Below are positions 32,813-40,925 of a stretch of DNA of 40,925 bases, in pieces. A model generated the notes under the pieces. It had not been told where the DNA came from. It searched no databases and saw only the letters and a program-made list of their open reading frames with translations. Each line of letters opens with the position of its first letter. The first letter of the stretch is position 1. Source of the stretch: Rhodospirillales bacterium (GTDB lineage: Bacteria; Pseudomonadota; Alphaproteobacteria; CACIAM-22H2); contig CANFCX010000010.1 of assembly GCA_947445225.1 (NCBI GenBank), positions 1 to 40,925 on the forward strand. Reading direction: 5' to 3'. The position numbers were made by a program, and so were the translations under genes.

Positions 32813-33714
32813 GCCTGGCGGCGCTGGTGTCGATTCCTCCCAAGCACCAGCGCCTGCCAGCCGTTAAGGTTACGGCGCCGACGCAGGGTTAGTCCCTGGC
32901 GCCGATAGGCGGCAAGAACCTCCCTTTCCTGGGTTGATAGAAGCCCGGCGAGTACGATCAGGCCGTTTCCGGCCAATCGTCGGCCGAGGCCGCGCGCCAG
33001 CCGGCACAGCGGCCGCGCCAGGATATTGGCGAAAATCACATCGAAGCGGCCGCCGGCCAAAAGCGCGGGCGAATGCAGGCCATCGGCCCGAACCACGCGA
33101 ATCCGGCGGAGCGCGTTGACTCCGGCATTTTCGCGCGTCACCGCCACGGCATCGCCGTCGATATCGGCGGCCACGATTGCAGCCGCCGGCCAGGTCCGCG
33201 CCGCGGCCATCGCCAGGATCCCGGTGCCACAGCCAAGATCGAGGATCCGCCGCGGGCGGCGGGTTCGCGCGATTTCCTCGAGGCTCAGGAGGCAACCGCG
33301 CGTGCTCGCATGTTCGCCGGTGCCGAAGGCCAGCCCGGCATCGATACGCAGGCCGATCGAGCCCGCCGGGGGGAGCCGCCGGCTTTGCCGTCCATGGATG
33401 AAATAGCGGCCGGCGGCGATCGGCGGAAAGGCCTTTTGGTTTTCGGCTAGCCAATCCGTCGGCGGCAGTTTCTCGACGCGAAATTCCGGCGCGGCCAAAC
33501 CTTGGCTCGCCGCGACCAGGGCGATGCGGGCGGAGACTAGGCCGCGATCCGGTTCGGCGACCGCGATGGCCTCGACGACCCAGGCGCCCGGAACGTTCGA
33601 TTCATATTCGGAAACCGCCGCGAACCCGTCTAGCGCCGCCGCGAACGCGGAACTCGCCGCTTCGGGCACACACAGCCCAATCCGCCACAGATCGGGCGCG
33701 ACCGGTCTCGCCAT
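32809..33714 (-). CDS. prmA: Ribosomal protein L11 methyltransferase PrmA
   Basis: A SAM-dependent enzyme that methylates ribosomal protein L11. The 301-residue protein has an N-terminal substrate-recognition domain (about 1-110), then AFGTGEHASTRGCLLSLEE, the SAM loop ILDLGCGTGILAMAAA and FDVIFANILARPL. The ATG at 33714 lies 2 bases after the end of the helicase gene, so the two are likely cotranscribed. It ends convergently inside the DUF1127 stop. Confidence 0.94.
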   Translation of the reverse strand: MARPVAPDLWRIGLCVPEAASSAFAAALDGFAAVSEYESNVPGAWVVEAIAVAEPDRGLVSARIALVAASQGLAAPEFRVEKLPPTDWLAENQKAFPPIAAGRYFIHGRQSRRLPPAGSIGLRIDAGLAFGTGEHASTRGCLLSLEEIARTRRPRRILDLGCGTGILAMAAARTWPAAAIVAADIDGDAVAVTRENAGVNALRRIRVVRADGLHSPALLAGGRFDVIFANILARPLCRLARGLGRRLAGNGLIVLAGLLSTQEREVLAAYRRQGLTLRRRRNLNGWQALVLGRNRHQRRQA

Positions 33715-33716
33715 GG

Positions 33717-35978
33717 TCAGGCGGGGGTGACGAAGCTGTCGATCACCGTCTTGCCGCCGGCCTTCTCGAAATCGATGTCGAGCCGGTCGGCATCGACGGC
33801 GACAACCCGGCCGTAACCGAATTTCATGTGGAAGACCCGGTCGCCGACCTTAAAGGCCGAGGCGGGCCGAGGGCTGCGGACTTCGCGCGCGCGACCGTCG
33901 ATCATCCTGTCGCGCGGCGACGCCGCACCCCCATAAGCGGATCGCCCCGGTCGCGCCCGCCCATCCCAGGCATTGGCCCGCGAGCCGGCCCCGAACAGGC
34001 CGGGCTGGCTCACCAGATCGATATTCTCGGCCGGCAATTCGCCCACGAAACGCGACGGCAGGCTGCTCTGCCACAGATTGTGGATGCGCCGATTGGCCAC
34101 AAAGGAAACGAACAAACGTTCACGGGCACGGGTCAGCCCGACATGGGCGAGCCGCCTTTCCTCTTCCAATCCACCCTCGCCTTTTTCTTCCAGCGCGCGC
34201 GGGTGTGGGAACAGGCCTTCCTCCCAGCCGGGCAGGAACACCGTGTCGAATTCGAGCCCCTTGGCGCTGTGCAGGGTCATGACATTGACCATGTCGCCGC
34301 CGGCGCCCTCCACCGCGTCCATGACCAGGCTGACATGTTCGAGGAACCCGGTCAGGCCGTCGAATTCGGCGATGGCCGCGACCAATTCCTTGAGATTCTC
34401 CAGCCGTCCGGGCGCCTCCGGGGAACGGTCGTTTTGCCACATCGCCGTGTAGCCCGATTCGTCCAACACGATGCGCGCCAGCTCTGCATGGTGACTCTGC
34501 GTGAGTTGGCCGCGCCAGCGGTCGAAATCGGCCAGCAGCCGCTTGAGCGAGGCGCGGGCCGGGCCCTTGATCTCGTCCGTGACGACCAGGCGGCTCGCCG
34601 CTTCCACCATCGAGATTCGCGCATCCCGCCCAAGACGGTGCAAGGTCTGCACGGTCGCCGCGCCGATGCCCCGTCGCGGCACGTTGACGATACGCTCGAA
34701 GGCCAGATCGTCGTCGGGTTGGGCGACCAGGCGGAGATAGGCCATCGCGTCCCTGATTTCCTGGCGTTCGTAGAAACGCGGGCCGCCGATCACGCGATAG
34801 GGCAGGCCGATGGTCATGAAACGCTCTTCGAATTCGCGGGTCTGGAAACCGGCGCGGACCAGCACCGCCACTTCGCTCAGCGCGTGGCCCTTGCGTTGCA
34901 GCGCCTCGATCTCCTCGCCGATCCAGCGCGCCTCCTCCGCGCCATCCCACAGCCCGCGGACCTGAACCTTTTCGCCGCCCTCGACCGAGGTGAACAGGGT
35001 CTTGCCGAGACGTCCGCGGTTGTGCGCGATCAATCCGGAGGCCGCCCCCAGGATGTGGCGCGTGGAGCGGTAATTCTCCTCCAGCCGGACGATCTTGGCG
35101 CCGGGAAAGTCCTTCTCGAAGCGCAGGATGTTGCCCACCTCCGCCCCGCGCCAGCCATAGATCGATTGGTCGTCGTCGCCGACGCAGCAGAGGTTGCGAT
35201 GGGCCTGAGCCAGCAGGCGCAGCCAGAGATATTGGGCGACGTTGCTGTCCTGATATTCGTCGACCAGGATGTAGCGGAAGCGGCGATGGTATTCGGCCAG
35301 CACATCCTCGTGGCGGGTGAACAGGGTCAGCCCGTGCAAAAGCAAATCGCCGAAATCCGCCGCGTTCAGAGTCAGCAGCCGGTCCTGATAGGCGCGGTAC
35401 AGGCCGAGCAGATCGACGCCGTCCCCGTCCTCTGCCTCGGTGCCGGAAACCTTTTCCGGCGTCAGGCCGCGGTCCTTCCATCGCTCGATGGCGCCGAGAA
35501 TGGCCCGCGGCGGCCATTTCTTGTCGTCGAACCGCGCGCCCTCCAGCAATTGCTTGACCAGGCGCAGCTGGTCGTCGGCATCGAGGATAGTGAAGTTGGG
35601 TTTCAGGCCGATTCGTTCGGCATGACGGCGCAGGATGCGGGCGGCAAGAGCATGAAAGGTTCCGAGCCACAACCCTTCCGCGGACGGTCCGATCAGCGCG
35701 GTCACGCGTTCGCGCATCTGGCGCGAGGCCTTGTTGGTGAACGTGACCGCCAACACTTGGCTCGGCCAGGCGCGGCCACTGAAGAGGATATGGGCGAGCC
35801 GTGCGGTCAAAACCCGCGTCTTGCCCGTGCCCGCCCCGGCGAGCACCAGCAACGGCCCATCCAAGGCCTCGACCGCCATACGTTGGGCCGGGTTCAGCGC
35901 CGACAGATAGCCGGGAACGGGCGCGTCGGCGGGGCCGGCGGGTGCCGCGTCATCGGCGTGTGGCGCGGGGATCGACAT
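33717..35978 (-). CDS. uvrD: UvrD/PcrA-type superfamily 1 DNA helicase
   Basis: An ATP-dependent 3'-5' helicase in repair and replication restart. The 753-residue protein has Walker A AGAGTGKT (Lys53), motif Ia VTFTNKASRQMRERV, motif II VDEYQDSN, GDDDQSIYGWRGA, motif IV region LEENYRSTRHIL, VMTLHSAKGLEFDTVFLPGW and GLTRARERLF. The C-terminus ends in the PcrA-like tudor segment VGDRVFHMKFGYGRVV, which can bind RNA polymerase in relatives. A minus-strand TATACA hexamer lies about 9 bases before the ATG, suggesting a very short leader. Confidence 0.94.
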   Translation of the reverse strand: MSIPAPHADDAAPAGPADAPVPGYLSALNPAQRMAVEALDGPLLVLAGAGTGKTRVLTARLAHILFSGRAWPSQVLAVTFTNKASRQMRERVTALIGPSAEGLWLGTFHALAARILRRHAERIGLKPNFTILDADDQLRLVKQLLEGARFDDKKWPPRAILGAIERWKDRGLTPEKVSGTEAEDGDGVDLLGLYRAYQDRLLTLNAADFGDLLLHGLTLFTRHEDVLAEYHRRFRYILVDEYQDSNVAQYLWLRLLAQAHRNLCCVGDDDQSIYGWRGAEVGNILRFEKDFPGAKIVRLEENYRSTRHILGAASGLIAHNRGRLGKTLFTSVEGGEKVQVRGLWDGAEEARWIGEEIEALQRKGHALSEVAVLVRAGFQTREFEERFMTIGLPYRVIGGPRFYERQEIRDAMAYLRLVAQPDDDLAFERIVNVPRRGIGAATVQTLHRLGRDARISMVEAASRLVVTDEIKGPARASLKRLLADFDRWRGQLTQSHHAELARIVLDESGYTAMWQNDRSPEAPGRLENLKELVAAIAEFDGLTGFLEHVSLVMDAVEGAGGDMVNVMTLHSAKGLEFDTVFLPGWEEGLFPHPRALEEKGEGGLEEERRLAHVGLTRARERLFVSFVANRRIHNLWQSSLPSRFVGELPAENIDLVSQPGLFGAGSRANAWDGRARPGRSAYGGAASPRDRMIDGRAREVRSPRPASAFKVGDRVFHMKFGYGRVVAVDADRLDIDFEKAGGKTVIDSFVTPA

Positions 35979-36097
35979 CGTTGGAGATGTATAACATCCC
36001 GCCGGCCAAGGGAACCCATCGCGACGGAATCTCGGGCGGGCCGCGGCAGGTCGTGTTAGGGTTCGTTCTCTAACCCCACGACAAGGAGAGAGCGGCC

Positions 36098-37165
36098 ATG
36101 CTCGAGCGTCCCTGTGGGATCGCCGCCGGCTTATTTTTTCGCTCCAACCCGACTCCGTCTCATCGTCCGAAATCGCGATTTTTCCGCCGCCCGTGGCTGG
36201 CCGCGCTCGCGTTTCTCGCTTTGTCCTCCAGCCCCGAGGCGCGCGCCGCCACGCCGTTCGAGGACGTGTTCACCGCCATCGTCAAGATCCGCGCCCATAT
36301 TCCCGCCGATTCGCGCACGGCCGACGCGTTGGGCACCGAACGCGAAGGCACGGGCGTGGTCATCGATAGTTCCGGGATCGTCCTGACCATCGGGCACCTT
36401 ATCGTCGAGGCGATGTCGGTCGAGGTCACGATCAATGGCCGGTTTCCGGTCATCGCCTCGGTCTTGGCCTATGACCACGACACTGGCTTCGGCCTCGTCA
36501 AGACGATCGAGCCGCTGAAGGTCAAAGCCATCGAATTCGGGGACTCCATCAAGGTCGCCGAGCGTCAACCGGTGCTGATCGTGCCCTTCGGCGGAATCGC
36601 CGGTGCCGGCAAGGCAATGGTCGTGTCGCATCGCGAATACGCGGGCTATTGGGAATATCTGTTGAGCGACGCCATCTTCACCACCCCGCCCCTTCGCGAA
36701 TTTCCCGGGGCTGCGCTGATCGGCAGCGACGGCAAGCTGCTCGGCATCGGCTCGCTTTTTCTGTCCAATACCCTGGTTGGCCATTCACCCGTTCCCGGCA
36801 ACATGTTCGTGCCGATCGATCATCTGAAGCCGATCCTGGCGGCGTTGATCGAAACCGGGCGCGCCGAGCGCCCCGCGTCGCCGTGGCTTGGGATCAATAC
36901 CGACGATTCGCGCGGACCGATCGCGATCACGCGGGTCAGCGAGGGCGGCCCTGCCGCCCAGGCCGGTTTGGAAAGCGGCGACATCGTGGTCGCGGTGGGC
37001 GGAAAACGGCCCCAGACCTTGATCGAATTCTACAAGATGATCCGGGCGATCGGACCGGCCGGAGCCGCTATCCCCCTGACCATCCGCAGGGGGCGCGAGG
37101 TTCGCGAGATCGTCGTCGGATCGCTTGATCGCAACCAATTCCTTCGCCAGCAACGGTCGTACTGA
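36098..37165 (+). CDS. Secreted trypsin-fold PDZ protein lacking the catalytic serine
   Basis: Related to HtrA/Deg (S1C) proteases. A signal peptide runs to about residue 51 (AAL-rich core, ARA-AT cleavage). The trypsin-like domain covers about 55-250. The histidine site is kept (LTIGHLI, His100). The catalytic-serine motif GNSGGPL is replaced by EFPGAAL (201-207), putting Pro203 at the serine position. The aspartate region reads AYDHDTGFGLVK, and strict alignment places Gly130 at the acid position, with D126/D128 nearby. A PDZ domain (about 262-345, TRVSEGGPAAQAGLESGDIV) ends the protein. I infer a non-proteolytic binding protein in the periplasm. AAGGAG lies 9 bases before the ATG. Confidence 0.85.
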   Translation: MLERPCGIAAGLFFRSNPTPSHRPKSRFFRRPWLAALAFLALSSSPEARAATPFEDVFTAIVKIRAHIPADSRTADALGTEREGTGVVIDSSGIVLTIGHLIVEAMSVEVTINGRFPVIASVLAYDHDTGFGLVKTIEPLKVKAIEFGDSIKVAERQPVLIVPFGGIAGAGKAMVVSHREYAGYWEYLLSDAIFTTPPLREFPGAALIGSDGKLLGIGSLFLSNTLVGHSPVPGNMFVPIDHLKPILAALIETGRAERPASPWLGINTDDSRGPIAITRVSEGGPAAQAGLESGDIVVAVGGKRPQTLIEFYKMIRAIGPAGAAIPLTIRRGREVREIVVGSLDRNQFLRQQRSY

Positions 37166-37172
37166 CCGGCTT

Positions 37173-38054
37173 TTAGGGACCGAGGTCGCGCACCACGCGA
37201 AATCCAAGGTCATAGCTGCGGAAATCGGCGCGGCTGGCGTTGCGCGCCGCGTTGCGCGCGACACGGGCGTGGAAATACCAGGAGCCGCCGCGGACGCGGC
37301 GGGTCGTGCAATCCGCGACGCGCCACGGACTGCCGTCGCGCGGCGCGGCCTCGTAGGACCCGCCGCCGCAATCTTCCACCCATTCCAGAACATTGCCGAT
37401 GACATCGTGCAGGCCGAAGGCATTGGCCGGAAATGAGCCCACCGGCGCGGTCTGCCGGGCGCTCCACACCGTGCCGCAATCGCCGCAATTGGCGCGGGCG
37501 GCGTCCAGAGCTACACCCCAGGGCCGCGTCGCCCGGCTGCCCGCGCGCGCGGCATATTCCCATTCCGCTTCGCTCGGCAGGCGATAGGTCCGGCCGGTAC
37601 GCGCCGAAAGCCAGCGCAGGAATTCCTTGGCGTCGTTCCAATTCACGTCGATCGCCGGACGGCGGCCTCGACCCCAACCCTTGTCGTCGGGGCGATTCCG
37701 GCATCCGCCGGAAGCAACGCAAAGGTCCCATTCGGCGAAGGTGACCTCGAAGCGGCCGATGGCGAATGGCCGCGTTATCGTCACGAGGTGTTGCGGCCCT
37801 TCCTCGGCGTCGCGCCCGCTTTCGGTTTCGGGCGATCCCATGACGAAGGCGCCGGCGGCGATGGCGACCATCTCCGGACAATCGTCGCAATCCTTGAAAA
37901 CGGTGCCCGGATCGGGCGCCGGCGCCTGCGCCCAAGCGGCGCTACCGACGAGCAGCAACAGCAGCGCCGGGACACACACCCCGGAAAAGCCCCCCACCCC
38001 ACGCCCGGCATCACCTTTTTCCGTCGATCGTGCCAACGCCGCCATCCTCCACAT
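37173..38054 (-). CDS. Secreted SUMF1/FGE-like domain protein
   Basis: A 293-residue protein with an N-terminal signal peptide (hydrophobic VCVPALLLLLVGSAAWAQA) and a formylglycine-generating-enzyme-like domain (about 55-290). The fold signatures are AIAAGAFVMGSPETESGRD, YRLPSEAEWEYAARAG, NAFGLHDVIGNVLEWVED and RRVRGGSWYFHARVARNAAR. The catalytic cysteine pair of true sulfatase-activating enzymes is not present in that last segment, so it is probably not a sulfatase activator. Similar domains serve binding or other oxidative roles. A second ATG at 38045 is possible. It lies 16 bases after the ElyC-like gene on the same strand. Confidence 0.85.
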   Translation of the reverse strand: MWRMAALARSTEKGDAGRGVGGFSGVCVPALLLLLVGSAAWAQAPAPDPGTVFKDCDDCPEMVAIAAGAFVMGSPETESGRDAEEGPQHLVTITRPFAIGRFEVTFAEWDLCVASGGCRNRPDDKGWGRGRRPAIDVNWNDAKEFLRWLSARTGRTYRLPSEAEWEYAARAGSRATRPWGVALDAARANCGDCGTVWSARQTAPVGSFPANAFGLHDVIGNVLEWVEDCGGGSYEAAPRDGSPWRVADCTTRRVRGGSWYFHARVARNAARNASRADFRSYDLGFRVVRDLGP

Positions 38055-38070
38055 GCCCGCGGTGCCCGGA

Positions 38071-38868
38071 TCAGGCGCGCGGGCCGGGCAGAAACTCCGA
38101 TGTCTTCCCGGTCAGGTAATACACCGCCAGCCCGATCCAGGCATGGATGCCGGCCCCGAACTTCTCGAGCTGATAGGTCGGACTGATGGACGTCCGCAGC
38201 CACGACAGCCCGGTCGTGTTGAAATCGACGACGAGCGGAACGACCTCCCAGCCGATTGCGCGGAAACATCCGACCGAGCGCGGCATATGTGCGGCACTGG
38301 TCACGAGGAGCCAGACCTGGCCCGGTTTCGGTTTCGCCAATTCCTTGGAAAAAACCGCGTTTTCATAAGTGTTGCTGGACGTTTCCTCATACAACACACG
38401 ATCCGGATTTATCCCGAATTCCACGAGCAGAAGGCGCACCGTGTCGCTCTCTTTGCTTTCCCGGTTGAGCAGGTCTCCGGAACCGCCGCTGAACACGATG
38501 GGCGCGTTCGGGAACCGGCGGATCAGCGACAGCAGGGCAAACATGCGTTCGGCGGAATCGTTGAAGGAAGGCCGCCCGCGCGCCGCCGTGATCTGGGTGC
38601 TTTGGCTGCCGCCCAAAATCACGATCCCGTCGACTTGGTCCGGCGGCTGGGTGAAATCGGCGAAACGCTGTTCAAGCGGATAGAGCAGCCATTGATCCAT
38701 CGGCAGCAGGATGAACGCGGCGAGGAAGGTGACGATCGCGACGATCAGCCGGCGACCCCACATCCGCCACCGCGTCGCCAGCAGTATCGCGGCCACGCCA
38801 AGAAGGATCGTCAGGAAGGAAAGCGGGTTGGCGACGAACCAGAAAATTTTCGATGCGGTGAAGAACAC
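38071..38868 (-). CDS. ElyC/YdcF-family (DUF218) envelope protein
   Basis: A 265-residue membrane protein with two N-terminal transmembrane segments (about 10-30 and 38-58) and a DUF218 domain (about 75-240). The domain has GIVILGGSQSTQITAARGRP, APIVFSGGSG, VLYEETSSNTYENAVFSKEL and VWLLVTSAAHMPRSVGCFR. The E. coli relative ElyC affects undecaprenyl-linked envelope synthesis; the function here is inferred. GTG at 38868 is chosen because GGAG ends 7 bases upstream and the length and N-terminus then match ElyC. The longer open frame upstream is not protein-like. It is probably cotranscribed with the SUMF1-domain gene. Confidence 0.87.
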   Translation of the reverse strand: MFFTASKIFWFVANPLSFLTILLGVAAILLATRWRMWGRRLIVAIVTFLAAFILLPMDQWLLYPLEQRFADFTQPPDQVDGIVILGGSQSTQITAARGRPSFNDSAERMFALLSLIRRFPNAPIVFSGGSGDLLNRESKESDTVRLLLVEFGINPDRVLYEETSSNTYENAVFSKELAKPKPGQVWLLVTSAAHMPRSVGCFRAIGWEVVPLVVDFNTTGLSWLRTSISPTYQLEKFGAGIHAWIGLAVYYLTGKTSEFLPGPRA

Positions 38869-39248
38869 GTGCCGGCTCCAGAATGCTGTCGCCCGATTGG
38901 CGGCGAGACCGCACGATAGCGGCTTGGCCGCGCCCCCTGCAAATTTCCGGCAACGATGGGTTGCGCGCGAGCGCCGCGTTCGCCCTTGGGAAACGACGAT
39001 GGACGCGCTATACAGGTCGCCGCCGGAAAAAACGGACAACGCCGAATACGCGCGACTCCTGGGGCCTCGCGATGCGCGCCCTGGTCTGGGGCGTCGGTGC
39101 TCAATGTTTTTGACGGTCGGCAATCGCCTGCCCTGCCGCGGATTCGGGCAAGTAGATTCCCGCGCGCCGCGCCTCGGCGGCGGCCGCGGGAGCAGATGAA
39201 AAGAGGCTGTCCTGACCGACATCGCCTCCATGTGGAAGGGTTCGTTCA
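38869..39248. other. Gene-free 380-base interval
   Basis: This lies between two divergent genes. It holds a good plus-strand promoter (38986-39014) and GC-rich hairpins, for example GGG(CCT)CGCG-ATG-CGCG-CCC around 39062-39081. Short open frames are present but show no conserved-looking protein or ribosome binding site. The last 230 bases are probably the leader of the RRM gene. Confidence 0.55.
38986..39014 (+). promoter_or_regulatory. Candidate sigma-70 promoter of the RRM gene
   Basis: TTGGGA (38986-38991) and TATACA (39009-39014) are 17 bases apart. Initiation near 39021 would leave a leader of about 228 bases before the RRM start codon at 39249. Confidence 0.55.
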
Positions 39249-39626
39249 ATGGGTCGCAAGTTGTACGTCGGCAATCTGCCGTATTCTTATACCTCGCAGC
39301 ACCTGGAGGAGATGTTTAGTCCCCACGGTGCGGTGACCTCGGCGCAGGTCATCGTCGATCGCGTCTCCAATCAGTCCCGTGGCTTCGGCTTCGTCGAGAT
39401 GCAGTCGGAGCAGGAAGCCGACAAGGCCATCGAGGCCCTGAACGGAACCAGTATCGGCGGCCGGAGCCTGACCGTTAACGTCGCCCGCGACCGCGCGGAA
39501 GGCGGACCCGGTGGCGGAGGCGGCCGTTCCAATCGAGGCGGCGGGGGCGGCTTCGATCGCGGCGGCGGCGGGGGCGGTTTCGATCGCGGCGGGCCGCCGC
39601 GGGGCAATTCCTTCCGGCGCGACTGA
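39249..39626 (+). CDS. RRM-type glycine-rich RNA-binding protein
   Basis: A 125-residue single-stranded RNA-binding protein. Residues 3-80 form an RNA recognition motif, with RNP2 KLYVGNLPYS and RNP1 SRGFGFVEM. Residues 85-125 are glycine/arginine-rich, with repeated GGGGGFDRGG units. This architecture matches bacterial proteins often induced by cold; the RNA targets are unknown. GGAAGG lies 8 bases or so before the ATG. A long leader precedes it and two terminators follow. Confidence 0.93.
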   Translation: MGRKLYVGNLPYSYTSQHLEEMFSPHGAVTSAQVIVDRVSNQSRGFGFVEMQSEQEADKAIEALNGTSIGGRSLTVNVARDRAEGGPGGGGGRSNRGGGGGFDRGGGGGGFDRGGPPRGNSFRRD

Positions 39627-39646
39627 TCGACCAGCCCACACCAACT

Positions 39647-39676
39647 ATCCCCAATTTCCGGGGATGGCCTTTTTTC
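39647..39676 (+). terminator. First terminator after the RRM gene
   Basis: ATCCCC (39647-39652) pairs with GGGGAT (39661-39666), followed after GGCC by six Ts (39671-39676). It begins 20 bases after the stop codon. Confidence 0.65.
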
Positions 39677-39677
39677 A

Positions 39678-39711
39678 ACGCCGCCGCGATACCCCGCGGC
39701 GGCGTTTTTTC
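39678..39711 (+). terminator. Strong intrinsic terminator
   Basis: A 12-bp perfect stem, AACGCCGCCGCG (39678-39689) with CGCGGCGGCGTT (39696-39707), has a 6-base loop and runs into six Ts. It is the clearest intrinsic terminator in the window and insulates the gcrA-like gene. Confidence 0.93.
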
Positions 39712-39720
39712 TTTATTTCC

Positions 39721-39778
39721 TGCATCCATCACTATATATAGTAGGAGGTATTCGATCCTCCCACCGAATATGGATGCA
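39721..39778. promoter_or_regulatory. Nested inverted repeats just before the gcrA-like start
   Basis: Outer arms TGCATCCAT (39721-39729) and ATGGATGCA (39770-39778) are exact reverse complements. Between them lie a perfect 12-bp palindrome ACTATATATAGT (39731-39742), which could serve as a -10 region, and GGAGG/CCTCC arms (39744-39748 and 39757-39761). The outer right arm ends 2 bases before the start codon. It may be an operator or a leader hairpin that hides the start region. Confidence 0.6.
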
Positions 39779-39780
39779 CC

Positions 39781-40128
39781 ATGATCGCTGCTTCGATTTG
39801 GACCCCTGCCCTCGTCGAACAATTGCGCAGTCTGTGGCAAACCGGCGCCTCCACCGCGGAAATCGGACGGCGCCTCGGCATCTCCAAGAACGCCGTGGTT
39901 GGCAAAGCACACCGACTCGGCCTCGATTCGCGCGCCGCCCCGGTTGCCGCCCGGGCTCCGGTTGTGGTCGCCCTGTCACGGCATGCCTGCCAGTGGCCGG
40001 TCGGTCATCCGGGGGAAGATGGCTTTCACTTCTGCGGCGGTCCCAGCGCACCGGGGAAACCGTATTGCAACGAACACGCGAGCAAGGCGTATCGTACCGT
40101 CCAGCCCAGAACCGAAAGCGCCGCCTGA
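39781..40128 (+). CDS. Short GcrA-family cell cycle regulator
   Basis: GcrA proteins bind methylated promoters and RNA polymerase holoenzyme to drive cell-cycle genes in Alphaproteobacteria. This 115-residue member has the N-terminal helix-turn-helix (IWTPALVEQLRSLWQTGAS, then EIGRRLGISKNAVVGKAHRL) and the C-terminal sigma-binding segment ACQWPVGHPGEDGFHFCG, followed by KPYCNEHASKAY. The linker is only about 15 residues, so it is much shorter than the 173-residue Caulobacter protein. It may be a paralogue rather than the main GcrA. No normal ribosome binding site precedes the ATG; a five-codon open frame (39770-39784) overlaps the start. Confidence 0.88.
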   Translation: MIAASIWTPALVEQLRSLWQTGASTAEIGRRLGISKNAVVGKAHRLGLDSRAAPVAARAPVVVALSRHACQWPVGHPGEDGFHFCGGPSAPGKPYCNEHASKAYRTVQPRTESAA

Positions 40129-40198
40129 CGTTCGGGCCGCTTCGTTTTTCTGGACACCACCACCCGGGTGCCTAGCCCTCCCGCGCAAACCGGATTTT

Positions 40199-40218
40199 TA
40201 CTGTTCCCTGCAACAGTA
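40199..40218. promoter_or_regulatory. Inverted repeat upstream of the PilZ gene
   Basis: TACTGTT (40199-40205) and AACAGTA (40212-40218) form a perfect 7-bp repeat around CCCTGC. The right arm runs into TACTAT (40217-40222), a possible -10 element, about 70 bases before the PilZ start. It is a candidate operator. Confidence 0.4.
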
Positions 40219-40290
40219 CTATGATTGGCCGGCGTCTCGGCCGATGACCGAGTCGCGCGGAGCCCTGTGAATAATTTGGAGGGGACGACG

Positions 40291-40662
40291 ATGTCGAATG
40301 TCCAGGTAGTCGGCCACACATGGCGCAACCGGCGGCATGACAAACGTCTCAAGGCGCCGCTGACCGTCATCATCGGCGAAAAACCGTTCACGGTCGATAA
40401 TTGGAGCCTGGGCGGATTCATCATCCGCGAAGCCGTGGTCGACCTTGTTCCCGAAACCTCGACCAAGGTCCGTCTGCTCGTGCCCTTCCCGGATGGCGAA
40501 GTGACACTCGATGTCACCATCAAGGTCGTCCGCAACGGCGGCGATGAACCGCAATTCGCCGCCAATTTCGTCGAACTCGACAATCGCGCTGTCGACGCGC
40601 TCGACCGTTACGCGAGCCGCCGCTTCGTTCGGTCCGGTCCACCGCCGACACCGGCGCGGTAG
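40291..40662 (+). CDS. PilZ domain protein
   Basis: A 123-residue single-domain protein of the cyclic-di-GMP receptor family. It has the arginine motif in RNRRHDKRLKAPL (about residues 13-21) and the second motif NWSLGGF (N-x-S-x-x-G form). Both elements needed for ligand binding seem present. The ATG at 40291 follows GGAGGGG by 5 bases, so longer in-frame starts are rejected. It has no transmembrane or output domain, so it probably acts by binding a partner. Confidence 0.88.
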   Translation: MSNVQVVGHTWRNRRHDKRLKAPLTVIIGEKPFTVDNWSLGGFIIREAVVDLVPETSTKVRLLVPFPDGEVTLDVTIKVVRNGGDEPQFAANFVELDNRAVDALDRYASRRFVRSGPPPTPAR

Positions 40663-40667
40663 GCGGC

Positions 40668-40925
40668 CTAACGCGGTAGGATTGGGGCGCCGGCGGCCGC
40701 GGGCGGCGCGGCGCCCGGGGTCGATTGCGCGCCGCGCGGGGCGACGATGAATTCGATTCGGGCACCGTCGAGCCGGGCGCCTACGATCTGAACCGTCGCA
40801 ACGCGATTTTCCCGCATGAACGTCAATACGCTGTTGGCCGCGCGGACGACGCTGAGTTCGGTCCAGCCGAATCGCGGCATCTGCTGACGATAGAAATCGA
40901 ACATCTCGTTGGCGCTGTGCGACGA
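40668..40925 (-). CDS. 3' part of an unrecognised gene, cut by the window edge
   Basis: The open frame runs in from the right edge and ends at 40668. It reads SANEMFDFYRQQMPRFGWTE, then a basic and hydrophobic stretch, and ends in an alanine/proline-rich tail. An internal ATG at 40904 is not necessarily the start, because the frame remains open to the edge. The pattern of a helix followed by a glycine-tryptophan turn and beta strands suggests a small alpha/beta domain, possibly of a secreted protein. I do not recognise the family. It converges on the PilZ gene, with 5 bases between their stops. Confidence 0.6.
   Translation of the reverse strand, partial: SSHSANEMFDFYRQQMPRFGWTELSVVRAANSVLTFMRENRVATVQIVGARLDGARIEFIVAPRGAQSTPGAAPPAAAGAPILPR

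Follow-up and report, generated by a model that had tools for sequence, protein, structure and literature searches.

HtrA-Derived Pseudoproteases and a Probable New Family

As far as the available parts of two reports go, HtrA-derived pseudoproteases are an established kind of protein, with MamO (PMC4794232) and PflC (PMC12222027) as examples. MamO functions in magnetosome formation in magnetotactic Alphaproteobacteria, and the accessible portion of its description attributes a block of the active conformation to a residue other than Gly at the position aligned with chymotrypsin 193 (PMC4794232). PflC, in the part of its report at hand, is a dead HtrA relative in the flagellar motor of Campylobacter (PMC12222027). 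Of the 247 prokaryotic trypsin-like proteins that a 2008 survey gathered from 91 genomes, 2 were inactive homologues according to its available text (PMC2605481).

The window, that is, the whole stretch of 40,925 nucleotides analysed here, encodes a further protein that is probably of this type. Like HtrA, DegP, DegQ, and DegS (MEROPS S1C; TIGR02037), it has a trypsin-like domain followed by a PDZ domain, with significant matches in sequence and fold; however, it lacks the catalytic Asp and Ser, contains one PDZ domain, and carries AGxWEY in place of the loop L3 stretch, and its family has Tyr, Phe, or His at residue 100. With MamO, as described in the accessible portion of that report, it shares the condition of a pseudoprotease, a non-Gly residue at the chymotrypsin-193 equivalent, and a bulky aromatic residue in loop L1, whereas MamO keeps His and Asp with Thr in the place of Ser, has a TauE-like transporter domain, is encoded in magnetosome islands, and binds metal via a di-histidine motif (PMC4794232). 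Moreover, the WEY pseudo-HtrA family, to which the window protein belongs, is far more widespread than MamO. PflC is likened here by its description as a periplasmic HtrA relative without a catalytic triad that serves as a structural scaffold; nevertheless, according to the same partial source, it has two PDZ-like domains, has lost the His loop, has Asn instead of the Asp, and is a motor part of one genus (PMC12222027). Arabidopsis Deg5/Deg8 and other Deg proteins with a single PDZ domain or none share the HtrA fold, Deg1 (3qo6) and Deg8 (4ic6) being among the structure matches, but they are chloroplast proteases and the comparison is one of fold only. As candidates for a closer relative, MamO and PflC are absent by name from the best 60 of 377 PDB sequence matches and from the 50 structure matches listed in each of two comparisons, and no description of the WEY pseudo-HtrA family was found among the literature matches listed, which is not proof of its absence from print. 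How large and how old the family is seems to be new, as do its invariant replacement motif and its apparent occurrence in two compartments.

Architecture and Active-Site Positions of the Window Protein

The open reading frame at 36098-37165 (+) encodes a trypsin-like and PDZ protein of HtrA architecture, with AAGGAG close upstream of its ATG. Its features are as follows.

36098-37165, + strand: pseudo-HtrA gene, 355 amino acids, coordinates including the stop codon, ATG start
36086-36091, + strand: Shine-Dalgarno-like GGAGAG, putative in function, within AAGGAGAG from 36083, the stretch being identical in two congeners
36191-36247, + strand: apparent signal peptide, residues 32-50, PWLAALAFLALSSSPEARA, hydropathy peak of 2.15 at residues 34-44
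36254-36871, + strand: trypsin-like (HtrA) domain, residues 53-258, from Trypsin_2, AlphaFold2, and structure comparison, with outer limits chosen by the authors
36395-36397, + strand: His100, position of the catalytic His; Tyr or Phe in the rest of the family
36485-36487, + strand: Gly130, position of the catalytic Asp in the alignments
36650-36658, + strand: Trp185-Glu186-Tyr187, invariant family motif, in the stretch aligning with HtrA loop L3
36698-36718, + strand: EFPGAAL, residues 201-207, with Pro203 at the nucleophile position in the alignments
36872-37162, + strand: PDZ domain (Pfam) followed by the C-terminal tail, residues 259-355, in which the PWLG loop occupies 262-265; outer limits chosen by the authors

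Pfam finds Trypsin_2 at residues 84-217 (45.7 bits against a cut-off of 27.6) and PDZ models above their cut-offs within residues 263-339; no other models match the protein, and a TauE-like transporter domain is not among them. Both domains occur in 21/21 members of the family alignment A1. The NCBIfam model TIGR02037 for Do-family endopeptidases scores 80.7 bits, far below its curated cut-off of 416.2. At the N-terminus, a hydrophobic run at about residues 32-44, followed by EARA-ATP, resembles a signal peptide in its hydropathy. Thus, the PDZ domain and the signal peptide of the original prediction are both found, the latter as an apparent one. The GC content by codon position (0.63/0.49/0.80) is like that of the adjoining uvrD (0.71/0.46/0.82).

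The predicted fold is HtrA-like. AlphaFold2, with 21 family members as input and a single chain without partner or oligomer, gives a mean pLDDT of 84.1, with residues 1-51 below 50. The trimer is the basic unit of HtrA proteins, and this prediction covers a single chain. All 50 matches listed by Foldseek are HtrA-type proteins, and the best solved structure in VIA-align is Deg1 (3qo6_C; Z 25.1, rmsd 6.4 over 285 residues); many further HtrA entries come within 1-2 units of its score. The large rmsd would fit two domains sitting at different angles.

The catalytic positions have been located in two ways. A HMMER alignment with E. coli DegQ (4a8a, a mutant entry with Ala at the nucleophile position) pairs His100, Gly130, and Pro203 with the catalytic His, the catalytic Asp, and the nucleophile position, and a MAFFT alignment with three HtrA paralogues of the same genome (G000; contigs C56, C46, and C51), all with His, Asp, and GNSGG intact, places their H, D, and S in the same three columns. 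Since these independent alignments agree, the assignment of Gly130 and Pro203 is firm, and since both other examined genomes of the genus (L007 and L008) have the same residues, they are not a sequencing slip. The His-Asp-Ser triad is therefore represented by His100 together with Gly130 and Pro203, and E-F-P-G-A stands where the oxyanion-hole motif GNSGG would be expected. The original prediction, in which EFPGAAL replaces GNSGG and the active site is destroyed, agrees with both alignments, and the aspartate position that it left in doubt is now resolved as Gly130; Asp126 pairs with a neighbouring, non-catalytic Asp. No other serine lies close to residue 203 in the sequence, the nearest being Ser190 and Ser210. 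Proteolysis by the HtrA mechanism is very improbable.

Distribution and Conserved Residues of the Family

A protein search at E <= 1e-20 finds matches in 28/61 genomes, comprising the window's own, 22/22 other examined genomes of its taxonomic family, and 5/38 others of the class. In a profile search at E 1e-40, which leans to A1-like sequences, 96/385 genomes of the class Alphaproteobacteria, the window's included, have at least one copy, and the remaining 289 have no match at that threshold. A phylum sample weighted to complete genomes yields 28/299 genomes with a match, 27 of them of the same class. A pattern scan of named genomes gives at least 586 relatives, and the 80 taken from it include Beta- and Gammaproteobacteria, Desulfobacterales, and one SAR324 contig. 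Family-like matches at 41-46% identity are also present in 26 plasmid records (Rhizobium, Neorhizobium, Pararhizobium, Phyllobacterium, and Azospirillum), of which five name the protein "S1C family serine protease", one names it "signal protein PDZ", and the rest leave it unannotated; two further plasmid matches, at 27-30% identity, are annotated as DegQ. Because databases name relatives "S1C family serine protease", proteins that very probably cannot cut by the HtrA mechanism enter both the protease counts and the predicted functions of many Alphaproteobacteria.

An exported copy is retained in two single-contig genomes of about 1.2 Mb (L235/G120 and L237/G394; locus GC 0.31-0.32) and thus survives genome reduction. 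Two copies from one taxonomic family (f174), L255 (G508) and L260 (G448), carry one in-frame stop each (TAG and TAA), so that the gene can be lost.

The window protein shares 37-49% identity with the 18 A1 members outside its genus. Family members score a median of 420 bits with the family profile (5th percentile 358), whereas the three paralogues of the window's genome score 95, 85, and 44. Residue tallies refer to 222 distinct rows, after 15 duplicate loci had been collapsed on an identical 150-residue end; they leave out 26 loci new from later searches (L244-L271 minus those already in), the second copies in G011 and G008 (2 of the 33 places of the protein search), and the fragment G333:C321 of the profile search. 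Moreover, 80 rows came through patterns that demand G[YH]L or WEY, for which they are circular, and the other 142 rows have been counted apart.

At position 100, 212 rows have Tyr, 4 have Phe, 3 have His, and 3 have gaps. At position 130, 219 rows have Gly and 2 have gaps, while a lone Ser comes from a 158-residue fragment (L240) that is poorly aligned there. Trp185-Glu186-Tyr187 is found in all 218 rows with letters at these positions. The 142 rows not chosen by pattern give Tyr 132, Phe 4, and His 3 at position 100, Gly 139 and Ser 1 at position 130, and WEY in 138/138. Position 203 varies far more (Gly 115, Ser 65, Ala 15, Gln 12, Pro 4, Asn 4, and Thr 3, with 4 gaps), and none of the 65 rows with Ser203 has His or Asp at the other catalytic positions. 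Around it, the counterpart of the oxyanion-hole Gly is position 201, with Glu in the window protein and Gly in 4/218 rows, position 202 is W/F/Y/H, position 204 is Gly in 218/219, and position 205 is mostly Ala. The EFPGAAL stretch, whose conservation in homologues the original prediction proposed to check, is thus not conserved across the family. By the family's own marks, Gly130 and WEY, the window protein is a member, His100 in place of Tyr or Phe being its sole deviation. The three rows with His100 are those of the window's genus and the other 216 of the 219 rows have Tyr or Phe, so that the earlier view of His100 as a kept catalytic residue is not supported.

The most constant positions of the family differ from the old catalytic ones. 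At least 95% of rows have one residue at Arg82, Thr97, Gly99, Glu104, Asp126, Gly130, Trp185, Glu186, Tyr187, Pro197, Gly204, Ser219, Asn235, Pro239, Trp263, Gly265, and Arg345, among others. In the PDZ loop, Pro262 is found in 218/220 rows, Trp263 in 217/220, and Gly265 in 220/220. In the HMMER alignment, Trp185-Glu186-Tyr187 falls on the DegQ stretch RSGLNLEGLENF, which is the HtrA sensor loop L3. In HtrA, loop L3 passes PDZ occupancy to the active site; this relay, or the surface that it formed, may have been kept under a new rule while the old output was lost.

Judged by these alignments, the relatives are a distinct HtrA-derived family in which the loss of the cutting machinery is old and shared.

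Branches with and without an Apparent Export Signal

In the family tree, one 71-tip clade (support 0.83; inner 67-tip node 0.93) differs from the rest in its N-terminus: judged by hydropathy, 70/71 members lack a hydrophobic N-terminal stretch, versus 10/145 of the others. Many of its members start like M-S-x-x-x-D-W-E-I-P-x-x-x-Q-P ... F-D-L-D, and a W-x-[FILV]-[PA] motif occurs in 39/71. One of them (L109:7974-8945) has an AlphaFold2 pLDDT of 92.2 and matches 3qo6_B with Z 25.8 and rmsd 5.5 over 282 residues, with the same architecture as the window protein. Hydropathy suggests that the proteins of this branch are cytosolic; examples of an apparently cytosolic dead HtrA are L109:7974-8945, L144:1989-2963, and L232:1992-2975. 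One member of the branch lies on a Chromatiales contig and others are in Alphaproteobacteria. Since one branch has no recognisable export signal, the periplasm would not be needed for the shared core function, provided that the non-exported branch stays in the cytosol.

Age of the Loss and Selection

A FastTree tree with the paralogues of the window's genome as its root, and with rows of 240 residues or fewer left out (222 to 216), places the genus inside a clade of 49 tips (support 0.94). Tyr100 and Gly130 are present in every one of the 46 tips of this clade outside the genus; nodes nearer to the genus are weaker (0.68 for 30 tips and 0.38 for 4). According to this tree, the family lost the catalytic His and Asp before it spread. 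With Tyr100 proteins surrounding the genus in the tree, the simplest account of His100 is a late substitution rather than a retained catalytic residue, and the simplest reading of the tree is that Tyr100 to His and Ser203 to Pro arose within an already inactive family.

The open reading frame is intact in all three examined genomes of the genus, and the three congeneric copies give dN/dS values of 0.14, 0.16, and 0.18. The gene is under purifying selection, and this makes its product a maintained, working non-protease rather than debris.

Possible Functions

The protein is probably a pseudoprotease that binds partners through its PDZ domain and its remodelled cleft, as a scaffold, holdase, or adaptor. 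With the HtrA architecture of signal peptide, trypsin-like domain, and one PDZ domain, it would have no usable HtrA triad; the PDZ domain, whose PWLG loop is retained, could capture a partner peptide or protein tail, the peptide groove being assessed here by this one short motif; and the remodelled protease domain, with Tyr or His at residue 100, AGxWEY at loop L3, and a bulky residue 202 beside the former nucleophile, might bind or position the partner without cutting it. The protein would then act as a scaffold, holdase, or adaptor, and in the window's genus the site would have drifted further, from Tyr100 to His and from Ser203 to Pro. Published precedents for a binding or structural role of dead HtrA relatives are MamO (PMC4794232) and PflC (PMC12222027). 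Against this reading stand the 65/218 rows with Ser203, which show that loss of the nucleophile is not universal in the family, and the lack of a constant gene partner in the neighbour clustering. The original prediction of a periplasmic binding scaffold instead of a protease therefore fares unevenly: the destroyed triad and the maintained gene agree with it, and a binding scaffold may be the best guess, but the periplasm does not seem to belong to the shared core.

Alternatively, the dead subunit could regulate active HtrA proteins, joining or competing with DegP/DegQ-type paralogues and tuning their activity, much as MamO promotes the proteolysis that depends on MamE. The window's genome does encode three paralogues with intact triads, and, in the available part of the MamO report, processing that depends on MamE requires MamO but not the catalytic residues of MamO itself (PMC4794232). 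By analogy this role is conceivable but improbable, since the non-exported branch could not meet periplasmic HtrAs, barring an unrecognised export route, the paralogues score far from the family profile, and the activating part of MamO is the TauE-like domain that the window protein lacks. A new catalytic or ligand-binding centre formed by Arg82, Tyr100, Glu104, Asp126, Trp185-Glu186-Tyr187, Ser219, and Arg345 has somewhat poorer prospects still. Each of these polar positions has the same residue in at least 95% of rows, unlike the old catalytic ones, which are lost or variable, and the set is common to the exported and non-exported branches; nevertheless, a catalytic Tyr would not tolerate the His of the window's genus or the Phe of 4 rows at position 100, and Ser219 belongs to the strand that follows the nucleophile loop.

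Decay to a pseudogene in this lineage is very unlikely. Relatives elsewhere in the class carry the in-frame stops mentioned above (G508 and G448), and 289/385 class genomes give no match at the threshold, but all three genus genomes have an intact reading frame, every other examined genome of the taxonomic family has a copy, and the dN/dS of 0.14-0.18 refutes decay for the genus unless the constraint reflects very recent history. Least credible of all is a residual or unusual protease that would use His100 with another serine, for although His100 is present and Ser203 occurs in 65/218 family rows, the window protein has Gly130, Pro203, Glu instead of Gly at position 201, and no Ser between 190 and 210, and no row combines His with Ser, all three His rows having Pro203.

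The pseudoprotease reading could be extended, as a rather unlikely possibility, to a whole HtrA-fold family in about a quarter of the sampled alphaproteobacterial species and in other proteobacteria, which would have given up proteolysis before its spread, gained a new, strictly conserved ligand site around loop L3 (AGxWEY, Arg82, Tyr100, Glu104, Asp126, and Arg345), and come to occupy two compartments, one branch being exported and another not. If this were true, the family would represent a general module that reads peptides or ligands, rather than a relic of periplasmic quality control. So large a dead branch, in which the replacement motif is invariant, also offers a clean system for following the reuse of an allosteric protease fold after the end of catalysis, and the non-exported branch allows the question of fold reuse to be separated from envelope stress.

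Genomic Surroundings

The pseudo-HtrA gene lies head to head with uvrD/pcrA (region 33717-36098), with 119 bases between the two starts. A uvrD-like gene stands upstream on the opposite strand in 54/222 loci; where the upstream sequence available reaches 0.9 kb or more, it accompanies 51/139 exported versus 3/68 non-exported copies. This pairing is taken as shared gene order and not as a sign of function. Neighbour clustering over the 222 loci, with an ORF caller that missed 8 targets, found no constant same-strand partner, and an operon or partner logic has been rejected because the only frequent neighbour is the divergent uvrD/pcrA-like gene. Rarer opposite-strand neighbours include a ClC-like channel (19 loci) and a thioesterase-like gene (22 loci), both named from reading of the sequences rather than from a family search, among others.

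An imperfect inverted repeat, GTCGTG-TTAG...CTAA-CACGAC, lies at 36050-36083, just before the Shine-Dalgarno-like site, and its outline is kept in two congeners. As an RNA element this upstream hairpin has been rejected, its folding energy being no better than that of shuffled sequences (z -0.07). Rfam found nothing over 33000-40925, a promoter scan found none, and one terminator-like site lies within the gene, versus 1.3 expected. A defence origin (PADLOC, 0 families) and a phage origin (no phage record matched at E 1e-10) have also been discarded.

Downstream, and convergent with the pseudo-HtrA gene, 37173-38054 (-) encodes an FGE-sulfatase-domain protein that bears an apparent signal peptide and, in NCBIfam, matches PvdO best (243.6 bits against a cut-off of 500). 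Further on, 39249-40662 (+) encodes three proteins in series: an RRM RNA-binding protein that has a glycine-rich tail and scores just above the NCBIfam Rbp_regulator cut-off, a short protein resembling GcrA, and a PilZ-domain protein.
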